Shown here piece by piece: positions 20,507-58,875 of a stretch of 64,000 nt of DNA. The notes beneath the pieces are model-generated. The model saw only the letters and a program-made list of their open reading frames with translations. It ran no database searches and was not told the origin of the DNA. Position 1 is the first letter of the stretch, and every line of letters starts with the position of its first letter. Made by a program: the position numbers and the translations under genes. Source of the DNA: an uncultured Alphaproteobacteria bacterium (GTDB taxonomy: Bacteria > Pseudomonadota > Alphaproteobacteria > Rs-D84); NCBI GenBank assembly GCA_944389265.1, contig CALXLS010000004.1:1-64000 (forward strand), written 5' to 3'.

Positions 20507-20555
20507 CTTATTTTTATTAATTGATTTGTTGTGTCTGTATGTTAATATAAGCGCA

Positions 20556-20731
20556 TGCGCAGGGTGTTCCTGTGCAGAGGATTCAAGACCTATTGCACTG
20601 TCGTCGAATAACGACGTAAAACAAAAACTCCGACCATATAGGTTGGAGGGTTGCGAATATATTGAATAAGCACGCTATTTACAGTGAATAGTCTTGAACC
20701 TCCAACCACCTATTTTTTTTGGTGGTTTTTT
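20556..20731 (+). ncRNA. Unrecognised structured RNA, copy 1 (tandem with copy 2)
   Basis: Promoter TTGATT (20521-20526), 16 nt, TAATAT (20543-20548). 5' hairpin TGCGCAGG / CCTGTGCA (20556-20563, 20569-20576) with loop GTGTT. Long closing stem 20577-20600 with 20682-20702, about 21 bp with single bulges A20581, C20590 and G20595. Internal hairpins: CGTCG-aataa-CGACG (20602-20616) and CTCCGACC / GGTTGGAG (20628-20648, loop atata). Conserved segment GAATATATTGAATAAG at 20655-20670. Terminator AACCACC / GGTGGTT (20704-20727) plus T. Alternative 9-bp pairing: 20641-20649 with 20699-20707, excluding the second hairpin, the base of the closing stem and the terminator. Class unknown; either a cis-acting leader or an independent sRNA. 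Confidence 0.85.
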
Positions 20732-20771
20732 ATTGTTTGATTTATTTCAATTATGTTGTTAATATGAAAAA

Positions 20772-20955
20772 GACATAGGGTGTTCCTATGTTGAGGATTC
20801 AAGACCTCTGGCACTGTCGTCGGGTAGCGACGTAAAAAACACTCCGGCCATAATTGGTTGGGTGGTTGTGAATATATTGAATAAGCAACAATTTTTTTAC
20901 AGTGAATAGTCTTGAACCTCCGAACACCAACGAAAGCAGGTGTTTTTTCTTTTTT
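20772..20955 (+). ncRNA. Unrecognised structured RNA, copy 2
   Basis: Promoter TTGATT (20737-20742), 17 nt, TAATAT (20760-20765). 5' hairpin ACATAGG / CCTATGT (20773-20779, 20785-20791), loop GTGTT: the stem differs from copy 1 but pairs. Closing stem 20793-20816 with 20900-20920, with a partly mismatched middle. Internal hairpins CGTCG-ggtag-CGACG (20818-20832) and TCCGGCC / GGTTGGG (20843-20862). GAATATATTGAATAAG at 20870-20885, enclosed by GTTG/CAAC. Terminator AACACC / GGTGTT (20923-20944) plus long T-run. The antiterminator-like pairing 20857-20865 with 20917-20925 has 7 of 9 pairs. It ends 21 nt before the start of the secreted protein at 20977. Confidence 0.85.
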
Positions 20956-20976: not shown

Positions 20977-21420
20977 ATGAAAAAATCTTTTTTTATAATA
21001 ATTTGTGCATCTGTTGTTATTTCGCATGCAAATGCAAAAGTATACAGATGTATAACAAAAGCAAGCAGTGGAAATGCGCTTAGTTGTAGTGCTGCACCAT
21101 CAGATAGTACTGCAGAATGGAAATTAAATTGTTCTTTTCAGAATGCAGAAGGAACACAAAAAACTTTTGAAGCAAAGGGTTTAGGACTTTGTGGAGATGA
21201 TTATGGTGCAAGTGGTCACAGCAGTATAAATTCTTATGGTTCTTCCAATTCCAATAAATGTTATTGCAGAATGTTTTATCCTTATGGGGGGTCTGGCTAT
21301 TGGTTTTTAGCGACAACTTATTCTGACTATTCGTCTTGTGTAAATAATTGTGCATATAGTTGTTCTATGAAGATTTCAACAGACGCGTCTTTTAGAGAAG
21401 ATGTTTTAATTTATTGGTAA
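20977..21420 (+). CDS. Small secreted Cys-rich protein (CxC...C-x3-C-x3-C type)
   Basis: A 147-residue protein with a Sec signal peptide (residues 1-20, ending ANA). The ATG at 20977 is chosen because CGGAG sits 7 nt before it and it gives the signal peptide. The mature chain has a Ser/Gly-rich middle and a C-terminal block CYCRMFYP, a Trp, then C-x3-C-x3-C. The same block occurs in the next gene (21438) and in the membrane protein at 22807. No known family recognised. Presumably exported and disulfide-bonded. It heads a three-gene operon directly behind RNA copies 1 and 2. Confidence 0.8.
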   Translation: MKKSFFIIICASVVISHANAKVYRCITKASSGNALSCSAAPSDSTAEWKLNCSFQNAEGTQKTFEAKGLGLCGDDYGASGHSSINSYGSSNSNKCYCRMFYPYGGSGYWFLATTYSDYSSCVNNCAYSCSMKISTDASFREDVLIYW

Positions 21421-33176: not shown

Positions 33177-33253
33177 TGGTGGGTGGTATTGGACTCGAAC
33201 CAACGACCTTTACGATGTCAACGTAACGCTCTAACCAACTGAGCTAACCACCC
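33177..33253 (-). tRNA. tRNA-Val (anticodon GAC)
   Basis: A complete cloverleaf on the minus strand: acceptor GGGTGGT / ACCACCC, D-arm GCTC...GAGC, anticodon loop TTGACAT in stem TTACG/CGTAA, T-loop TTCGAGT, encoded CCA. Confidence 0.95.
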
Positions 33254-33279
33254 ATATTTTTCGGTGCATGTCCAGAAAG

Positions 33280-33333
33280 CCAACGACCCCTACGATGTCA
33301 ACGTACGCGGCTGACCAACTGAGCTAACCACCC
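33280..33333 (-). pseudogene. Decayed tRNA-Val copy
   Basis: Minus-strand sequence starting at 33333 repeats the first two thirds of the neighbouring tRNA-Val: GGGTGGTTAGCTCAGTTGGT, then TACGTTGACATCGTA with an intact GAC anticodon stem. The D-arm partner is lost (GCCGC instead of GAGC), the T-loop is broken and no 3' acceptor strand follows. Not a functional tRNA. Confidence 0.85.
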
Positions 33334-33411
33334 AATGTTTTCTTAAGCGCATAAATTATAGCAAAGAAAAATACGATTGCAATATCAAAAAGCAGCATTT
33401 ATAATACATAC

Positions 33412-33582
33412 CGCAACAGGTGTTCTGTTGTTGGGATTAGTAGCCTATTCAATCAGCGCCAGCGATGGCGAAAAATATCTCCAACTAATTGGTTGGAGTG
33501 AGTCTGAATATATTGAATAAGACCGCGATTTCTGATTGAATTGCTACTAAACTCCAACCACCTAAATTTTCTGGTGGTTTTT
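33412..33582 (+). ncRNA. Unrecognised structured RNA, copy 3
   Basis: Promoter TTGCAA (33377-33382), 17 nt, TATAAT (33400-33405). 5' hairpin GCAACAG / CTGTTGT (33413-33431), loop GTGTT. Closing stem 33433-33456 with 33532-33554: TTAGTAGC pairs GCTACTAA and ATTCAATCAG pairs CTGATTGAAT, so its sequence is unlike copies 1-2 but the pairing and the bulged C (33445) are kept. Internal hairpins CGCCA-gcga-TGGCG (33457-33470) and CTCCAAC / GTTGGAG (33479-33498). GAATATATTGAATAAG at 33506-33521. Terminator ACCACC / GGTGGT (33557-33578) plus T. Alternative pairing 33491-33499 with 33551-33559 is a perfect 9 bp. It ends 26 nt before the 33609 start codon. Confidence 0.85.
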
Positions 33583-33608
33583 ATTTGTTTTAAAATTCAG
33601 GGGTTGGT

Positions 33609-33800
33609 ATGACAATCGGGGCGGAAATTGATTCTATTCGCAAGAATTTAGGTTTGTCTGTTGTAGATATGTGTAATATTTTTGATGTGAAAGAATCTGA
33701 ATATTTTTTAATCGTTCGGGGGCAATATAAATTAAGTGTTTTTCAATTAATTATGTTTGTATCATCAGTATGTAAGCCTTTAAATTCCGTCCTTAAATAG
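33609..33800 (+). CDS. Small HTH-like (XRE-type) protein
   Basis: A 63-residue protein. IGAEIDSIRKNLGLSVVDMC, then IFDVKESEYFLIVRGQYKLS resembles a helix-turn-helix of the Cro/CI type (short scaffold helix, 'S..dmc..fdV.e..y..I..G'). GGGG lies before the ATG. It follows RNA copy 3 by 26 nt and ends at a bidirectional terminator. DNA binding is inferred from pattern only. Confidence 0.6.
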   Translation: MTIGAEIDSIRKNLGLSVVDMCNIFDVKESEYFLIVRGQYKLSVFQLIMFVSSVCKPLNSVLK

Positions 33801-58314: not shown

Positions 58315-58668
58315 TTATAACTGCTCACAAATGCAAGAAAGACCGGATGGAGTATTTGTACCGCTATAACAATCGTAAGTTACAGTTGTTGGTTCACAAG
58401 TTGTGTAAGATTGTGTGTAATAGCCTTTTGTGTCAGAACCCGTGGTTCCGGATCTTTCACAAAGGGAAGTAAATGCATCATATGTCCAACCTGTTGGGCA
58501 TGTGTTTAGGGTTCCTGTACTTCCTGTTGGACAGCAGCATTTAAAAGAAGTATTTGCTATGCAGTTGGCACTAGATTGGCATAAAGTTAATGCGGCATTA
58601 CCTGTATTTGGTAATATCGAAAAAATCATAGTTCCCAAAACTATGAGATAAGTTTTGTTTGGTTTCAT
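58315..58668 (-). CDS. Small secreted Cys-rich protein
   Basis: A 117-residue protein from the ATG at 58668 (GGAG 8 nt before), which gives a signal peptide (about 1-25, GNA); longer upstream reading to 58881 would run through the RNA copy and is rejected. The mature part holds about a dozen cysteines including FKCCCPTGSTGTLNTCPTGW and SGTTGSDTKGYYTQSYTTC. It shares the GTTGSDxxGxY segment with the downstream protein. It starts 28 nt after RNA copy 4. Confidence 0.75.
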   Translation of the reverse strand: MKPNKTYLIVLGTMIFSILPNTGNAALTLCQSSANCIANTSFKCCCPTGSTGTLNTCPTGWTYDAFTSLCERSGTTGSDTKGYYTQSYTTCEPTTVTYDCYSGTNTPSGLSCICEQL

Positions 58669-58695: not shown

Positions 58696-58875
58696 AAAAA
58701 ATTGAACCGCCAAGAAATCAAGGCGGCAGGAGGTTGGAAACAATATCAAAGAATTGTGTCGTTTATTCAAAATATTCACGACCCCCCTGCCAAATTGACA
58801 GGAGTCAGTTTTACGTCCGTTCCCAGACGCTTTGATAAAGGGTTTCCACACCCCGATATCGAAATACTCGATATC
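58696..58875 (-). ncRNA. Unrecognised structured RNA, copy 4
   Basis: Read on the minus strand. TATAAT (58887-58882) puts the start at about 58875. 5' hairpin GATATCGA / TCGATATC (58875-58855), loop GTATT. Closing stem 58854-58830 with 58751-58730 (CTTTGATA pairs TATCAAAG; GTTTCC pairs GGAAAC). Internal hairpins CGTCT / GGACG (58829-58814) and CTCCTGTC / GGCAGGGG (58804-58784, loop aattt). Conserved GAATATTTTGAATAA (58777-58763) closed by TCGT/ACGA. Terminator CCGCC / GGCGG (58726-58707), T-run. Alternative pairing 58791-58783 with 58733-58725, 9 bp. The sequence is far from copies 1-3 but the structure is kept. Confidence 0.85.

Follow-up and report, generated by a model that had tools for sequence, protein, structure and literature searches.

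The closest described relative of the RNA studied here is sRNA-Xcc1 (Rfam RF02221), a short RNA made in vivo that measures 88 nt by end mapping and about 100 nt on Northern blots (PMC2996969). It is found upstream of symE in the most widespread Xanthomonas integron cassette (PMC12444791), and its seven copies in Xylella have been interpreted as sRNAs delivered in vesicles (PMC12189769). None of these three papers describes a leader with two folds, and a search of the literature found no publication joining sRNA-Xcc1 and antirepressors. IsrK and the C4 RNAs of lambdoid and P22/P1-like prophages resemble the present element in placing a structured RNA and a terminator before phage regulatory genes, and IsrK is made as a short and a read-through isoform (PMC4825925). 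Riboswitches with transcription control share with it a 5' leader starting from a promoter, a junction whose unpaired core is conserved, terminator and antiterminator structures that exclude each other and many copies per genome, while T-box leaders share the terminator/antiterminator logic.

The window, by which we mean the whole stretch of 64,000 nucleotides that was analysed, comes from Candidatus Enterousia in order Rs-D84, whose members have reduced genomes of about 0.9 Mb and are probably obligate symbionts or parasites (PMC12306168). Four copies of a structured RNA had been noted in it, and we verified on the window DNA their positions and strands, the variation of their stem sequences with pairing kept, their terminators, and a 16-mer (GAATATATTGAATAAG) that shows no difference among copies 1-3 and is matched at 14 of 16 positions in copy 4 (Table 1). 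The initial annotation counted two internal hairpins where we count three, and the 16-mer, conserved as described, turns out to be the 15-nt loop of the third hairpin, whose stem is variable and covaries. All four copies fold more stably than their dinucleotide shuffles, none of 200 shuffles equalling the native sequence. The family is thus structured as proposed, but it appears to be more than an RNA of about 180 nt, since it sits as a 5' leader before genes; we consider it likely to be a cis-acting, bistable transcription attenuator of the terminator/antiterminator type.

Table 1. Leader copies, their parts and the adjoining genes in the window. E-values against model R1 derive from a shortened calibration; z is the folding score relative to dinucleotide shuffles.
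Feature	Position	Strand	Details
Promoter, copy 1	20521..20548	+	-35 TTGATT 20521-20526, -10 TAATAT 20543-20548; read directly
Copy 1, complete leader RNA with terminator	20556..20733	+	R1 (built in part from this copy) E=3.4e-54, 186 bits; z=-7.2
Copy 1, 5' hairpin	20556..20576	+	TGCGCAGG-GTGTT-CCTGTGCA
Copy 1, P1 outer closing stem, 5' strand	20577..20589	+	partner 20691-20702
Copy 1, P1 outer closing stem, 3' strand	20691..20702	+	from covariation analysis
Copy 1, hairpin P2	20602..20616	+	helix 5, both-side changes in 4/4 pairs
Copy 1, hairpin P3	20628..20648	+	CTCCGACC-ATATA-GGTTGGAG; helix 6, both-side changes in 8/8 pairs
Copy 1, putative antiterminator 5' strand (P3 3' strand)	20641..20649	+	GGTTGGAGG; complementary to 20699-20707
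Copy 1, putative antiterminator 3' strand	20699..20707	+	CCTCCAACC; overlaps P1 base and terminator 5' arm
Copy 1, hairpin P4	20651..20672	+	invariant loop GAATATATTGAATAA 20655-20669; helix 7 stem covaries, 4/4 pairs
Copy 1, intrinsic terminator	20705..20733	+	ACCACC...GGTGGT and U tract; helix 8, both-side changes in 5/6 pairs
Promoter, copy 2	20737..20765	+	TTGATT 20737-20742, TAATAT 20760-20765; read directly
Copy 2, complete leader RNA	20772..20951	+	R1 E=1.8e-50; z=-5.2
Copy 2, parts	P3 20842-20863, P4 loop 20870-20884, terminator 20923-20951	+	
Copy 2, putative antiterminator strands	20856-20864, 20917-20925	+	mismatched; weakest among the four copies
Gene after copies 1 and 2	20977..21420	+	147-aa predicted secreted protein, signal peptide (MKKSFFIIICASVVISHANA...)
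Promoter, copy 3	33377..33405	+	TTGCAA 33377-33382, TATAAT 33400-33405; read directly
Copy 3, complete leader RNA	33413..33585	+	R1 E=5.0e-40; z=-6.2
Copy 3, parts	P1 33433-33444 with 33543-33554, P3 33479-33499, P4 loop 33506-33520	+	
Copy 3, 3' parts	pre-terminator strand 33551-33559, terminator 33557-33585	+	
Gene after copy 3	33609..33800	+	63-aa small protein, helix-turn-helix-like pattern
Copy 4, complete leader RNA	58699..58875	-	R1 E=9.5e-50; -10 TATAAT 58887-58882; z=-5.3
Copy 4, parts	5' hairpin 58875-58855, P3 58804-58784, P4 loop 58777-58763, terminator 58727-58699	-	
Copy 4, putative antiterminator strands	58791-58783, 58733-58725	-	GGCAGGGGG, CCTCCTGCC
Gene after copy 4	58315..58668	-	117-aa predicted secreted Cys-rich protein, signal peptide (MKPNKTYLIVLGTMIFSILPNTGNA...)

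Searching for exact occurrences of the conserved loop added a fifth copy, which lies on a different contig of the same genome (G000; 935 kb in 7 contigs), and a covariance model, R1, was built from the five. At E<=1e-4 R1 finds 20 copies in this genome, and it has matches in 69 of 99 relatives; a second model, R2, was derived from an alignment of 109 copies (A6) and matches 180 of the 190 genomes of order Rs-D84, including 122 of 126 good ones. The covariance-model search suggested at the outset thus reveals a widespread family. Most of the named genomes recovered by a pattern scan belong to uncultured Alphaproteobacteria of gut origin (ruminants, horse, chicken, termites), among them Candidatus Enterousia intestinigallinarum and Ca. 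E. scatequi. When 289 genomes drawn from Alphaproteobacteria were searched with R2, 23 matched (3 from the own genus, about 20 from elsewhere in the class), the matching genomes measuring 0.9-2.2 Mb. Full scoring of eight Enterousia genomes of about 1 Mb gave 16-60 copies each, counted at E<=1e-3 per genome with E-values from the shortened calibration. Two further Enterousia genomes (G041 and G150, both more than 90 % complete) have zero RNA matches, compared with the 16-60 copies of sister species, and would represent a natural loss usable for comparison. Phage carriage of the window copies was rejected, as DNA similar to them is absent from the 50,697 phage records searched; three viral contigs hold strong relatives of the leader.

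In the fold with P1 closed (OFF), the 5' hairpin is followed by a long P1 stem with an internal loop, by hairpins P2, P3 and P4, and by the terminator. Both-side changes are seen in 46 of the 50 pairs of this fold in A6, where 95.9 % of cells are paired compared to 70.4 % after shuffling and at most 44.9 % after sliding; A6 was fitted to the proposed structure, and its pairing figures are biased towards it. The 5' hairpin (helix 1) changes on both sides in 8 of 8 pairs and is paired at 98 % (107 distinct sequences), and outer P1 (helix 2) does so in 9 of 12 pairs. The P4 loop reads GAAUA-UAUU-GAAUAA as RNA; loci from the pattern scan were picked by this loop and by a GGAG strand, so that conservation at both is overstated in those rows. 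Because of the bias of A6 we also ran a simplified R-scape analysis, a G-test with APC whose null consisted of 25 alignments made by randomly re-placing the substitutions on every tree branch. Of 14,535 column pairs 28 are significant, and 24 of them are OFF-structure pairs. The selection for RNA structure that had been read from compensatory changes is thereby confirmed (24 of its 50 pairs exceed the phylogenetic null significantly), and these pairs, together with the 20 copies at E<=1e-4 in the own genome, exclude chance.

One significant pair, A6 columns 42-274 (T-A in 45 sequences and C-G in 35), is explained by neither fold; it joins the bulge after the first P1 bases to the strand after P4 and is perhaps a tertiary contact. 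The four copies suggested that the 5' loop GTGTT makes a kissing contact with AATAT of the P4 loop; this idea was rejected, as the loop variants GAGTT, GCGTT and CGGGTT break the contact and zero column pairs support it in the phylogeny-aware test.

Beyond its role in P3, the 3' strand of this hairpin is complementary to the strand following P1, which is also the 5' side of the terminator. Comparative analysis indicates that this second fold (ON), mutually exclusive with the first, covaries as well, and that this alternative pairing, which is conserved, excludes the terminator. On A6 the antiterminator helix is paired at 94.4 % compared to 85.3 % after shuffling, and the number of double-change cells is 68 where shuffling predicts 18.5. 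Four of the significant pairs fall outside the OFF structure; two of them belong to this helix, and a third (276-300) lies in a small hairpin, CUAU/AUAG, that can form only with P1 open. The clearest exchange is CAACC to CTGACC beside GGTTGG to GGTCAG, and some of those bases are unpaired in the OFF fold.

Nearest-neighbour calculations place the energy of ON above that of OFF, the median difference being 13.7 kcal/mol for the full RNA and 9.7 kcal/mol for the nascent one. OFF should therefore be the default in Enterousia and, at a cost of about 10-14 kcal/mol, either a strong trigger is needed or ON is rare in these bacteria. In the E. coli phage relative the P1-closed fold (-68.4 kcal/mol) and the ON fold (-67.0 kcal/mol) are nearly isoenergetic.

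The RNA is preceded by a sigma-70-like promoter (TTG at -35, TATAAT at -12 to -7) whose end lies about 6-7 nt away, and the transcript should therefore begin at the 5' hairpin. The promoter boxes stand at a fixed distance from the first base of the RNA, and both are present with at most 2 mismatches in 59 % of 137 copies, compared to 6.4 % in the control. The family shows the order promoter, leader, intrinsic terminator and same-strand gene: 107 of the 132 copies with enough DNA (81 %) have a gene start downstream. Of these, 77 form a strict set, in which a Shine-Dalgarno sequence and an ORF no shorter than 50 aa are present within 70 nt (the distance has a median of 25 nt and quartiles of 22-29), and a looser gene rule admits a further 30; 18 copies have no recognisable gene and 7 precede another copy. 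By a simple heuristic rule, proteins with a signal peptide make up 70 % of the strict set and 20.6 % of 350 control genes at the same loci (odds ratio 9, p=2e-16), and the Cys content is 6.4 % in the exported strict-set proteins compared to 1.7 % over all controls. A second downstream group consists of small proteins of helix-turn-helix-like type, some of which match Pfam HTH families weakly.

In the window, the ORF of the 147-aa protein starts 25 nt past copy 2 with the ribosome site GGAG, and that of the 117-aa protein starts 30 nt past the terminator of copy 4 and has AGGAG; Pfam and NCBIfam searches gave zero matches for either protein. The 63-aa protein has zero matches in Pfam, and its homologues, 29-48 % identical, lie behind leaders at four other loci. 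This small-protein family (33609-33800 and loci L032, L095, L130 and L068) measures 62-78 aa, has an invariant QLIMF and occupies the position immediately after the leader in several species; its members may regulate the leader system or be among its targets. The layout is kept in distant alphaproteobacterial copies, where the proteins downstream are, as named by eye, exported, lipoprotein-like or pilin-like. At L202 and L222 (G281, another alphaproteobacterial family) several leaders stand before near-identical pilin-like proteins (GRSMVEMLGTLAIMGVLTIGG...).

The initial annotation recognised no named class. This holds for the window, where the Rfam search returned only tRNAs at threshold, and copies in the own genome match no family at threshold either; it does not hold for the 3' half of divergent members, which matches RF02221 reciprocally. 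Window copies fall short of the RF02221 gathering threshold of 53 bits and are unmatched even at E<=10. The best three RF02221 scores in the own genome are 42.5, 37.7 and 37.2 bits (E 1.4e-6 to 2.4e-5), all from members already found by R1, the next match having E 0.8; one of them, C3:10613-10796, has an R2 score of 125.5 bits alongside its 37.2 bits (E 2.4e-5) with RF02221. The threshold is exceeded, at 56.2 bits, by a relative from a different family of Alphaproteobacteria, and R2, built from Alphaproteobacteria only, aligns full length to four RF02221 loci (E 4.5e-7 to 1e-3). Homology to RF02221 thus runs through intermediates, and the window copies, while outside sRNA-Xcc1 by the RF02221 threshold, represent a larger and distant branch of its lineage.

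The consensus of RF02221, a model made independently of ours, corresponds to the ON fold: a GGNNGGGGGG strand, P4 with AAUA...GAAUA, a small third hairpin and a CCCCNNCC strand. The GGNNGGGG / CCCCNNCC helix that encloses P4 and the third hairpin is present and covaries in Enterousia. While the Rfam model spans only 87 nt, its loci carry the P1 5' strand about 95 nt upstream, outside the model; this strand pairs with the 3' half of its own locus at a median of -28.9 kcal/mol and with swapped halves at -20.6 kcal/mol, the own partner being better in 29 of 30 cases. Unlike RF02221, the window copies have a 5' hairpin, a true terminator and secreted-protein genes rather than antirepressors, and RF02221 was described as a trans-acting sRNA whereas we read the Enterousia element as a cis-acting leader. 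RF02221 itself has matches in 55 of 398 genomes of the phylum. Its loci often stand before phage antirepressor or symE genes; Pfam assigns downstream genes to families such as SymE, Bro-N, KilA-N, P22_AR_N and Rha, and gave no match for 3 of the 10 that were tested. In beta- and gammaproteobacterial relatives the U run after the 3' hairpin is mostly absent, and control may therefore differ there. The RF02221 loci L226-L255 of these two classes show a P2-like hairpin with a loop like CCCGACAG, then a T run and GTGCC or ATGCC, apparently an intrinsic-terminator-like element inside the leader that is absent from Enterousia.

Comparative sequence evidence establishes the two folds, the promoter, the terminator, the position before genes, the spread and the link to RF02221, and from these we infer that the folds interconvert, that their balance sets expression and that a trigger shifts it. 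Transcription would begin at the 5' hairpin. In OFF, P1 would close the junction of P2, P3 and P4 and leave the strand after P1 free for the intrinsic terminator, so that the transcript stops after about 180 nt. In ON, the P3 3' strand (GGUUGGAGG) would pair instead with the strand after P1 (CCUCCAACC), undoing P3, the base of P1 and the terminator 5' arm and forming a hairpin that encloses P4 and the small CUAU/AUAG hairpin; the polymerase would then read into the downstream gene, in Enterousia mostly that of a secreted Cys-rich protein. A trans factor or ligand common to many proteobacteria might recognise the AAUA...GAAUA core of P4 and favour ON. The conservation of this core is compatible with either a ligand or a protein as binder, and since phages, integrons and plasmids carry the element through three proteobacterial classes (alpha, beta and gamma), the partner should be widely conserved.

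Some candidate partners and classes can be set aside. The own genome seems to lack c-di-GMP and ppGpp signalling, as GGDEF and RelA/SpoT proteins were not found in it, making either molecule an unlikely ligand; a specialised NusG paralogue (RfaH- or LoaP-like) was rejected since a single NusG was found. Unlike T-box leaders, the element has no Rfam T-box match and its downstream genes are not amino-acid genes. The isrK and C4 Rfam models have no match at threshold in the window or its relatives, and IsrK differs from the present leader in that its regulation works via an upstream ORF.

The short terminated isoform of IsrK activates the read-through isoform (PMC4825925), and a dual element of this kind can be imagined here, in which the terminated RNA of any copy acts on the read-through transcripts of others and tens of copies cross-talk. 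Copies do share complementary strands, swapped strands pairing at 85 % of positions, and gene-less copies exist. However, the antiterminator strands of a copy pair at 94.5 % with each other and at no more than 88.1 % when exchanged between copies, which argues for selection in cis and makes the dual function unlikely.

A pure trans-acting sRNA family, whose product would be the terminated transcript (about 180 nt) or the 3' half of it and whose adjacent gene would be a mere neighbour, would agree with the published view of sRNA-Xcc1 (PMC2996969) and its several Xylella copies (PMC12189769). Each copy has its own promoter and terminator, as such a family would require, and tandem as well as gene-less copies occur. 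Yet in 81 % of the copies a gene start follows directly, within a narrow range of distances, the genes concerned are a strongly biased set, the antiterminator pairing would be purposeless in a pure sRNA, and the most conserved loop sits within a closed hairpin; we regard this explanation as slightly less likely still. Finally, a repeated DNA element (a mobile or recombination site) that works as structured single-stranded DNA, with its position before genes a by-product, would suit the high copy number and the RF02221 relatives in integron cassettes (PMC12444791), phages and plasmids, but it is very improbable given that copies within one genome diverge widely with pairing kept, that every copy is flanked by a promoter and a gene start and has a transcriptional terminator, and that covariation in P1, P3 and the terminator follows RNA helices.

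With the cis-acting attenuator as the preferred reading, the relatives outside Enterousia take on a broader meaning. A full-length relative precedes ant in Rac-SA53 (KU052037.1; locus L256, 1455-1740), a Rac-like phage of E. coli; in E. coli a relative stands before an antA/AntB antirepressor gene, with a match in 158 of 5,426 complete genomes; and on a Providencia plasmid a relative precedes Rha. We hypothesize, with somewhat less than even confidence, that the element is a Proteobacteria-wide class of bistable leaders answering to one conserved signal, present in phages (antirepressors), integrons (symE) and plasmids, that it has expanded in reduced-genome gut symbionts to become the main switch of their secretome, and that sRNA-Xcc1 is the half that survives in the ON fold. 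sRNA-Xcc1 may thus be half of a widespread leader, its 88 nt being presumably the ON hairpin that remains after processing, and it could be reinterpreted, testably, as a cis switch before phage antirepressors and SymE toxins. To our knowledge, almost no regulation has been described in Enterousia and its order. A switch standing 16-60 times before secreted Cys-rich protein genes would offer the first handle on the control of partner contact, and the leader would define a putative secretome from sequence alone; the E. coli relatives would make mechanism and trigger accessible in laboratory E. coli.

Tandem arrays of two to three leaders before one gene are found at L032, L065 and L126 and in the window (20556-20951), where each of the two tandem copies has a separate promoter. 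Just upstream of copy 3, tRNA-Val (33177-33253) is followed by a very similar stretch at about 33261-33335 in which ARAGORN and Rfam call no tRNA, and which looks like a decayed duplicate of tRNA-Val.
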